The notes beneath the pieces were generated by a model. That model saw nothing but the letters and a program-made list of their open reading frames with translations. It searched no databases and was not told where the DNA came from. From positions 1 through 25,070 of the IMG/VR virus record IMGVR_UViG_3300032284_000079: 25,070 bases of DNA; one strand, 5' to 3'. Both the position numbers and the translations under genes were made by a program. The stretch comes from a virus. Positions 1 to 16,917 of the stretch are shown piece by piece. The first letter of the stretch is position 1; each line of letters opens with the position of its first letter.

Positions 1-206
1 GTTGTTGGAAATAAACCCTTGCGATTAAGTAATCCATGTGATTTCTTTTCAAGTTCGGCAGCTAACCTGATCATCTGACCCTCTGGAATGTTGGTTGTTC
101 GCCAATGTGTTACGGCAGCTTGACTAACCTTAGCCATCTTAGCCACGTTCTTAGTGCCACCAAGCAAGTCTACAATTTGAGAATGAGAGAGTTTAAATGT
201 GTCCAT
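1..206 (-). CDS. Cro/CI-like HTH repressor (C-terminus beyond window edge)
   Basis: At least 68 codons, open to the left edge. The product begins MDTFKLSHSQIVDLLGG and has a compact helix-turn-helix over residues 10-45 (IVDLLGG, NVAKMAKVSQAAVTHW, then IPEGQMIRLAAEL). This is the layout of small phage Cro or CI-type repressors, where the QAAVTHW stretch would be the recognition helix. It is the only minus-strand gene in the control region and is transcribed divergently from the early operon, as expected for a lysis/lysogeny or early-gene switch. ATG at 206 has no Shine-Dalgarno sequence; a candidate promoter would start transcription almost on the ATG, which suggests a leaderless mRNA. Whether it is the Cro-like or CI-like partner cannot be decided, because no second repressor is visible. 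Confidence 0.8.
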   Translation of the reverse strand, partial: MDTFKLSHSQIVDLLGGTKNVAKMAKVSQAAVTHWRTTNIPEGQMIRLAAELEKKSHGLLNRKGLFPT

Positions 207-214
207 ATACAACA

Positions 215-243
215 ATCTTAACAGATTTAAATATATTTTACAA
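215..243 (-). promoter_or_regulatory. Candidate repressor promoter (leftward), leaderless type
   Basis: On the minus strand a -35 TTGTAA (243-238) is followed after 17 bases by a -10 TAAGAT (220-215). The expected start lies about 7 bases further on, near 208, only two bases before the repressor ATG at 206. No purine-rich ribosome site precedes the ATG. Boxes and spacing are seen directly; promoter activity is inferred. Confidence 0.5.
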
Positions 244-248
244 GACTG

Positions 249-277
249 TTGACATTTCACTTTAGATAAGTTAATCT
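249..277 (+). promoter_or_regulatory. Early rightward promoter
   Basis: A perfect -35 TTGACA (249-254), a 17-base spacer and a -10 TAATCT (272-277) form a near-consensus sigma70 promoter. The predicted start is near 284, about 37 bases before the first early ATG at 321. It faces the repressor promoter, with the two -35 boxes only a few bases apart. Confidence 0.75.
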
Positions 278-320
278 GTTTATACGTCATGTTGACGTGA
301 TAACTTTAGGAGAAACTCAA

Positions 321-563
321 ATGAGTGAACAAGATCAGCAACAGTATCAAGACCAGCATCAATTAGAGCAACAACTCGAAGAAATATTTGACTATTTACT
401 TGATGGGGTAGCCTTAGATAACGAACAGATAGATTTGCTTCGTTATGGCTGTGGATTACCAAAAATCAATTACAACAAAAAATTCCTGTCCGATGTGTTT
501 AAAGACATGGGTGACGCATTTACACGCTTTGATAAAGCAACTCAATTTGGAGAAAGAAAATGA
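321..563 (+). CDS. Early hypothetical protein, Gln/Glu-rich N-terminus
   Basis: 80 residues and the first gene after the early promoter. The start is ATG 321 because AGGAG lies eight bases upstream; the in-frame GTG at 297 falls inside the 284-298 dyad and has no ribosome site. Residues 1-25 are very rich in Gln, Asp and Glu and probably helical. The rest has a short hydrophobic helix (FDYLLDGVALDNEQIDLL) and a basic stretch near KINYNKKF. I do not recognise the family. It overlaps the next gene by ATGA, so the two are probably translated together. The first position in an early operon suits a small regulatory or host-takeover protein, but nothing in the sequence proves this. Confidence 0.75.
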   Translation: MSEQDQQQYQDQHQLEQQLEEIFDYLLDGVALDNEQIDLLRYGCGLPKINYNKKFLSDVFKDMGDAFTRFDKATQFGERK

Positions 564-15936: not shown

Positions 15937-16917
15937 TTAAGAGCCTGTTAAGACACCTTGTAAGAATGAGTTAGAGCAAGTAAGATTACCAGCCCAGCCA
16001 TATAACTTAACAATAGCATCTTGGTTAATAGACTGACGTTCGCCACCGATAGGAACAAAATTACGTTCTTTGTGTGGGCGCAAGAAGATGTAGTTTGTGT
16101 TGAGCAAGTACATATAAGTTGCAGTTTCTTGTGCGCCATAACCGCCTCCTAATACTACGTCAGCAGACATACCACCACCGTAGAACTTCAATGATGCAAA
16201 ACCTGCTGCGCCTTCTTCAGTACCAGCGATACGCTGAATAGCTTGTAAAGAAGCAACATAGTATTGATACAAAGTGTTACCAGCTACGATTAAGTCTACC
16301 TTATCAGTACCACGAACAGACTTGATAGCAGCAGTAGTCATTGCAGCTTGGATAGTTGTGGAAGAAGTAGCACCTGTTGTCGCTTGATTCTGCCAAAATG
16401 TCCAGTTTGCACGATTAATACCACCGTAAGTACCGCTAGTTGGTGAAGTTGATACAGCAGCAGCCAAACCAGTAATGTTTTTACCACCGTTACCTGTACC
16501 GTCACCATAGATGTCAGTAGAAATACGGTTTAACAAGCGAGCTTCAGAAACTTGCATACGACCATCTAACAGGTCAATGATTTGTTCCTTAGAGCTGTTT
16601 TGCAACATTTCTAGACCACTCATTGTTACGCTATCTGCGTACTGAGTAATAGAGAACTGAGCAGCACTAATTGGGCTATCAGGAGTGATGTTAAGAACTT
16701 CGTAGCCTGAATAACTATTAGCGTTGTTCGTATTCGGGTCGTTATACATGATTTCTTCCAAAATCACATTACCGCCTGAGAATGGGCGAACATTGCCCTT
16801 GCTATTTAAGCGTTGAAGAATTGCGTTGTTTTGTGTTAAGTTATCTGCCAATACTCCGCTACGACTTTGAATGGTTGTAGCGATAATATCGGTGATTGCG
16901 CTATTTGCGAATGCCAT
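15937..16917 (-). CDS. Major capsid protein (BPP-1 type)
   Basis: 326 residues. The start MAFANSAITDIIATTIQSRS, the segments GNVRPFSGGNVILEEIMYND, ISAAQFSITQYADSVTMSGL, EMLQNSSKEQIIDLLDGRM and GIDxA-like GGINRANWTFWQNQ, and the C-terminal PHKERNFVPIGGERQSINQD are the hallmarks of the major capsid proteins of Bordetella BPP-1-like podoviruses, which use an HK97 fold. It follows the scaffold gene and is followed by the putative decoration gene. A strong site AAGGAAAT precedes the ATG. No protease gene and no N-terminal delta domain are seen, so maturation probably depends on a separate scaffold. Confidence 0.9.
   Translation of the reverse strand: MAFANSAITDIIATTIQSRSGVLADNLTQNNAILQRLNSKGNVRPFSGGNVILEEIMYNDPNTNNANSYSGYEVLNITPDSPISAAQFSITQYADSVTMSGLEMLQNSSKEQIIDLLDGRMQVSEARLLNRISTDIYGDGTGNGGKNITGLAAAVSTSPTSGTYGGINRANWTFWQNQATTGATSSTTIQAAMTTAAIKSVRGTDKVDLIVAGNTLYQYYVASLQAIQRIAGTEEGAAGFASLKFYGGGMSADVVLGGGYGAQETATYMYLLNTNYIFLRPHKERNFVPIGGERQSINQDAIVKLYGWAGNLTCSNSFLQGVLTGS

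Follow-up and report, generated by a model that had tools for sequence, protein, structure and literature searches.

The start of the viral DNA analysed here (hereafter the window: 25,070 nucleotides, positions 1 to 25,070 of IMG/VR record IMGVR_UViG_3300032284_000079) probably holds the early control region, with divergent promoters, of a tailed phage. We consider it likely that its leftward gene, a Cro-family regulator, is expressed from a leaderless transcript (with a leader of 2 nt in the window), a reading well supported by the comparison of related loci. The mRNA of the operon on the opposite arm appears, judging by predicted starts and covariation, to begin with a conserved hairpin.

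Leftward promoter and predicted transcript start

On the minus strand, the candidate promoter is laid out as a -35 hexamer TTGTAA (243-238), a spacer of 17 nt and a -10 hexamer TAAGAT (220-215; extended as TGTTAAGAT, a trait overlooked by the initial annotation), and 8 nt (TGTTGTAT) lie between TAAGAT and the ATG at 206-204. Both hexamers were confirmed by a coordinate check, and the -10 is conserved in relatives as well. Every position that the initial annotation had given for TTGTAA-17-TAAGAT and for the ATG at 206 proved exact. The divergent regulatory region that it described was supported, and its proposal of a transcript start some two bases ahead of the ATG agrees with the A at 208, which lies 7 nt past the end of the -10 and leaves a predicted leader of 2 nt (207-208, minus strand). 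The regulator transcript would probably read 5'-AUAUGGAC, opening with AU-AUG.

By consensus this promoter is weak (8/12), and it was not reported by the promoter scan of the window (threshold 9/12); no further minus-strand pair above 7/12 was found within 200-420. Promoter pairs of at least 8/12 that end 6-8 nt upstream precede 16 of the 923 ATGs in the window (1.7%), and the window promoter alone could be a chance occurrence in AT-rich DNA; among 29 hand-picked gene starts of the window, the one at 206 alone has such a pair. The claimed absence of a Shine-Dalgarno sequence at this start was borne out: none of the other 28 has an anti-Shine-Dalgarno duplex as weak as this one (-1.4 kcal/mol, against -2.5 to -9.3 kcal/mol). 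Among relatives, 35 of 38 distinct 20-mers gave duplexes of -2.4 kcal/mol or weaker, the exceptions being L018 (-7.0), L012 (-4.5) and L015 (-3.4), in which the letters around the -10 resemble a Shine-Dalgarno sequence.

Conservation of the -10/ATG spacing

Relatives were drawn from two scans of viral_contigs (80 of the 128 relatives of the second scan were taken in), from two more scans with divergent members and from two named phage records. The family set obtained among the matches listed comprised 100 loci with a readable start (window included), corresponding to 57 distinct upstream sequences, 56 of which had the 45 nt required for scoring (L078 did not and went unscored for the -10 spacing). 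We left out one truncated, startless locus (L073), one unrelated frame (L104), four duplicate records (L097, L098, L105 and L106) and L001, which is the window itself.

A -10 hexamer ends 6-9 nt ahead of the ATG in 55 of the 56 distinct upstreams (among the matches listed), the gap being 6 nt in 40, 7 nt in 12, 8 nt in only 2 (L007 and the type of the window and L002) and 9 nt in 1 (the L075 type); the sole exception, L094, has its Cro ATG internal to a fusion. The hexamer reads TAAGAT in 48 of the 55, TAAAAT in 4, and TAGGAT, TAAGCT and TATACT in one each. As a background, a hexamer scoring 4/6 or better stands 6-8 nt ahead of 808 of the 12,303 other ATGs of the same loci (6.6%).

The relatives share ancestry and the counts across upstreams are therefore non-independent, so that the strongest points are the subfamilies in which the letters changed and the spacing was kept (L095/L099-L103, with TTGCAA-17-TAAAAT-N6-ATG, and L075/L076, with TTGTAA-17-TATACT-N9-ATG). 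Moreover, TTG(T/C)AA stands at exactly 17 nt in 15 of the 15 upstreams lacking the extended TG (L094 aside), and the -35 reaches only 4/6 in 10 of the 40 upstreams that have it. A full -35 where the TG is absent and a poorer one where it is present are as expected if the promoter matters; the pattern also tracks subfamily lines. The spacing kept in 55 of 56 upstreams thus strengthens the earlier claim of a leaderless or near-leaderless regulator mRNA, the start itself being a predicted one.

Seven loci (L035, L040, L050, L051, L061, L063 and L070) have the inter-promoter stretch swapped for another segment and retain TGTTAAGAT-N6-ATG; in most of the seven, the swapped segment carries a CTCAA..TTGAG inverted repeat.

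A Cro-type regulator and its genomic surroundings

The leftward gene (3-206, minus strand) is predicted to encode a Cro-family DNA-binding regulator, as indicated by its relatives and by matches to P22_Cro, YdaS and 1rzs. It is cut by the window edge, with 68 codons inside (78 in the closest relatives among the matches listed). The window protein scores below the cut-offs of both Pfam families (P22_Cro, E 1.5e-6, 28.4 bits vs 30.2; YdaS, E 1.4e-4, 22.1 bits vs 30), the L095 protein exceeds both, and all 16 records examined contain a P22_Cro match (above the cut-off in 6). Compared with solved structures, profile A1 matched 1rzs (P22 Cro, the best solved relative; E 1.8e-5), 8co2 (1e-4) and 3bd1 (7.4e-3). 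By these profile matches the regulator is classed as a single-domain, Cro-type protein of the Cro/YdaS group, not as a CI.

The initial annotation had suggested that the gene may use the same scheme as lambda cI; this likeness was not upheld, given the Cro/YdaS affiliation of the protein and the 16 records (possibly incomplete), in which neither integrase (PF00589) nor resolvase (PF00239) nor a CI-like repressor of the HTH_3 type was found. The records exceed 30 kb in 14 of the 16 cases, and none is certified complete. A lambda-like lysogeny switch was rejected on the same grounds, together with a scan of bacterial genome contigs by short patterns (which can miss relatives) that matched 424 stretches and recovered no relative. 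That these phages are lytic is no more than a guess.

Several loci differ in the organization or annotation of the cro-like gene. L094 (4698-5216) encodes an HNH_3 endonuclease domain (E 1.1e-11) fused in frame ahead of the Cro-like domain, and TAAGAT is found 5 nt ahead of an ATG that heads the fused frame. In the public annotation of MW202674.1 (L095, 4038-4250), cro has no entry, and the cro-like frame is overlain by a hypothetical gene on the minus strand. A contig of 33,963 bases (G011) carries a cro-like gene at either end (L067 and L069), which suggests end redundancy.

The major capsid protein encoded in the window (15937-16917) shares about 50% identity with its counterparts in Myxococcus phage Mx8, Stenotrophomonas phage BUCT555 and Bradyrhizobium phage ppBjS10J-1; as the capsid relatives are spread over these three host genera and others, no host follows from them. 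Downstream of the cro-like gene, 5 of the 25 distinct sources searched contain the Betaproteobacteria-1 RNA (RF02932; L011, 3956-4077; L013, 5389-5511; L016, 5384-5506; L018, 5688-5814; L020, 5514-5639), which gives no more than a hint that the host is betaproteobacterial and that the leftward transcript includes a structured RNA. L096 (222-288) and L030 (213-279) have minus-strand matches to the int-alpA RNA (RF02996) that reach the gathering score. Within the first 450 nt past the cro stop, 63 of 71 distinct downstream stretches are linked by blastn (e.g., L005, L013, L027), and several of them resemble, by eye, structured RNAs with terminator-like T-run ends; the window is cut before that region.

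Rightward promoter and the proposed hairpin of the opposing mRNA

The rightward promoter (plus strand) consists of a -35 TTGACA (249-254; kept in relatives) and a -10 TAATCT (272-277; TAATCT, TAATAT, TAAAAT or TAAAGT in relatives). It is followed by a Shine-Dalgarno sequence AGGAGAA (308-314; duplex -7.3 kcal/mol) and by the first rightward gene (321-563, plus strand; 80 aa), which has no known family according to the open reading frame list and family searches. In the window, the facing operon includes a nuclease-like gene (phrog_298); in relatives it has ERF and SSB genes. The exonuclease-like gene of the window operon is followed by an intrinsic terminator-like hairpin with a T run (2616-2633).

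The new element at this locus is that the rightward transcript should, by its predicted start, begin on a short hairpin. In the window the hairpin (ACGTCA-TGT-TGACGT, 284-298, plus strand) is marked by pairing and covariation; its first base, the predicted rightward start, is the seventh past the -10, and its last base is exactly where the interval of the initial annotation ended (298). All 57 distinct leaders (among the matches listed; L094 and L078 were excluded from the hairpin and operator counts) form a 5-bp stem with G-U allowed, and in all 57 this stem begins after 5-8 nt past the -10, relative to which the rightward start is predicted. With Watson-Crick pairs only, at least 5 bp form in 47 of the 57, vs 4.2% of mononucleotide shuffles. 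There are 14 distinct arm pairs, with loops of 3-6 nt, and arms re-dealt at random (10,000 trials) paired in 52% of cases on average and in 80% at maximum, vs 100% for the real ones, the stems tested in this way having been chosen for pairing. Compensated changes separate the close record pairs L075/L076 and L100/L102. The 10 leaders with a non-Watson-Crick pair all have G-U on the rightward strand and none is better read as A-C; they are of two kinds, and the independent events may be few. The window hairpin by itself is not unusually stable (z -0.65), and a longer stretch of the window (284-345) favours a different fold. In the 25 distinct sources compared with Rfam, neither the hairpin nor the leftward start matched a known family.

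The hairpin would most likely serve to protect the 5' end. An ompA-type 5'-terminal stem-loop was reportedly described in E. coli by Emory and by Bouvet in 1992; the likeness is that of a short stem-loop at the 5' end (at a predicted start here), and the differences are that the stem in the phage has only 5-6 bp and that its stabilising effect is putative.

Operator-like sites

In 61 of 71 distinct upstreams, a 14-bp dyad (TT.AG.T..(C/G)T.AA) spans part of the rightward spacer and the -10; the window version, TTTAGATAAGTTAA (261-274, plus strand), overlaps the -10. The pattern was derived from these same sequences, so that its fixed letters are fixed by construction; the free letters are T at position 3 in 58 of the 61, T at position 12 in 55 and C at position 10 in 53. 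The 10 unmatched upstreams include L066 (off by one letter) and two stretches cut too short (L079 and L084), and the 7 true non-matches are L095, L099, L100, L102, L103, L075 and L076. On the leftward side, an operator-like site with a single good half-site, TTAAGAT (208-221, minus strand), covers the -10 and the start point. Of the 71 distinct upstreams, 64 have the corresponding half-site TTA(A/G)G(A/C)T over the leftward -10, immediately ahead of the ATG, and it has no well-kept second half. These putative operators are most naturally read as sites through which the Cro-like protein would repress both promoters. As TAAGAT falls within an operator-like site of a kind that the rightward promoter also has, its conservation need not be purely that of a promoter.

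Alternative explanations

The same overlap invites the main alternative, in which TAAGAT owes its conservation chiefly to an operator half-site and the true leftward promoter lies elsewhere, giving a leader devoid of a Shine-Dalgarno sequence. We regard this as quite unlikely: TTAAG.T-like half-sites do occur in the dyad-like sites of both promoters, but the hexamers of L095/L099-L103 (TAAAAT) and L075/L076 (TATACT) are not half-sites and still have a -35 exactly 17 nt upstream, and no alternative leftward pair above 7/12 is found near the gene. That the letters at 215-243 are an AT-rich coincidence with no promoter at all is scarcely credible, as the arrangement is conserved in 55 of 56 distinct upstreams, even though 8-of-12 pairs do stand ahead of 1.7% of the window ATGs. 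It is also very improbable that the regulator starts at another codon on a leadered mRNA, for instance at the in-frame ATG at 290. The window frame is open as far as that ATG (96 codons from there), and 9 of the 57 distinct upstreams have no in-frame stop within 45 nt, but such a stop is present in the other 48, very close relatives show frame shifts between -10 and ATG (gaps of 6, 7 and 8 nt), and protein conservation begins at the chosen ATG (MDTF/MKDTF/MNTT). ATG is the start at 206 and in 57 of 57 distinct upstreams (it was required during start picking), and the start at 290 was discarded because of the frame breaks in relatives.

A further alternative bears on the hairpin part only, and takes the palindrome at 284-298 for a DNA operator instead of an RNA hairpin. 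The perfect 6-bp dyad adjoining the promoter in the window would fit such a site; the half-site letters and the loop length (3-6) nevertheless vary over the 14 arm pairs, a compensated pair separates L075 from L076, whose proteins are nearly identical, and the wobble pairs of the 10 leaders are specific to the rightward strand. The operator reading is disfavoured by this variation and strand-specificity, and we hold it to be rather unlikely.

Proposed model and relation to known systems

Under the preferred reading, a leftward sigma-70-type promoter would start transcription at or within about 2 bases of the AUG of the Cro-family gene, yielding a leaderless mRNA that may be translated weakly or in a state-dependent manner. 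The rightward promoter, predicted to be strong, would drive a Shine-Dalgarno-led operon (the nuclease, with ERF and SSB in relatives) whose first bases fold into the short hairpin. The Cro-like protein probably binds the dyad at the rightward -10, together with a weaker site spanning the leftward -10 and the start codon, and in doing so may damp both promoters, its own included. One could speculate that the opposite 5' ends (a bare AUG vs a capping hairpin) tilt the phage between the two arms after transcription, driven by changes in host ribosomes (70S initiation, MazF-type stress) and by 5'-end-dependent RNA decay; we consider this extension doubtful.

The dependence on host state and the 70S initiation put forward in the initial annotation reflect traits of leaderless mRNAs at large, and are putative for this locus. 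Kasugamycin reportedly leaves leaderless transcripts uninhibited (PMC5230787). The lambda cI gene, transcribed from PRM (the lysogenic arm), provides the familiar case of a leaderless regulator mRNA; the locus described here resembles it in that respect (by prediction), and differs from it in that CI is another protein than the Cro-type regulator and PRM serves lysogeny. A closer parallel is the Yersinia telomere phage PY54, for which the available portions of the report place the cro and cI transcript starts at the AUG by RACE (PMC4488713). A leaderless phage cro, measured in PY54, is what we predict here, whereas the PY54 immunity region (as portrayed in those portions) contains both CI and Cro, and here a single Cro-type gene faces a recombination operon and a CI of the HTH_3 type was not found in the records. 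Leaderless cro is thus already on record, and the present switch is, as far as those portions go, unusual and not unprecedented.

According to the sections available for E. coli O157:H7 prophage CP-933P (PMC8630535), paaR2 and ydaS are divergent genes 97 bp apart, the CI-like paaR2 is leaderless by RACE and N-terminal sequencing, and the Cro-like YdaS protein binds over both promoters. The divergent layout, the leaderless regulator and the Cro/YdaS-type protein are shared (on our side as deduced from sequence), whereas the leaderless gene there is the CI analogue and the locus belongs to a prophage. The C protein of the AhdI restriction system has a leaderless transcript, assumed in the accessible text to be five times less translated (PMC5333194); it is likewise a small autoregulatory protein with a leaderless transcript (both traits being predicted here), and differs in serving restriction-modification control rather than a phage. 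In Burkholderia cenocepacia, transcriptional regulators are enriched among leaderless transcripts, as stated in the available part of that study (PMC4603805). Among the open papers listed by our searches, none showed a leaderless regulator together with a covarying hairpin at the 5' end of the opposing mRNA.

The leaderless phage regulators that we found in print were described phage by phage. Here, the spacing between -10 and AUG can be read across 57 distinct sequences from several subfamilies, and the fact that the -10 letters change while the spacing stays points to selection on the spacing. With its covarying hairpin on the bases predicted to be transcribed first, the opposing mRNA would offer a simple model of how 5' ends shape early control in phages.
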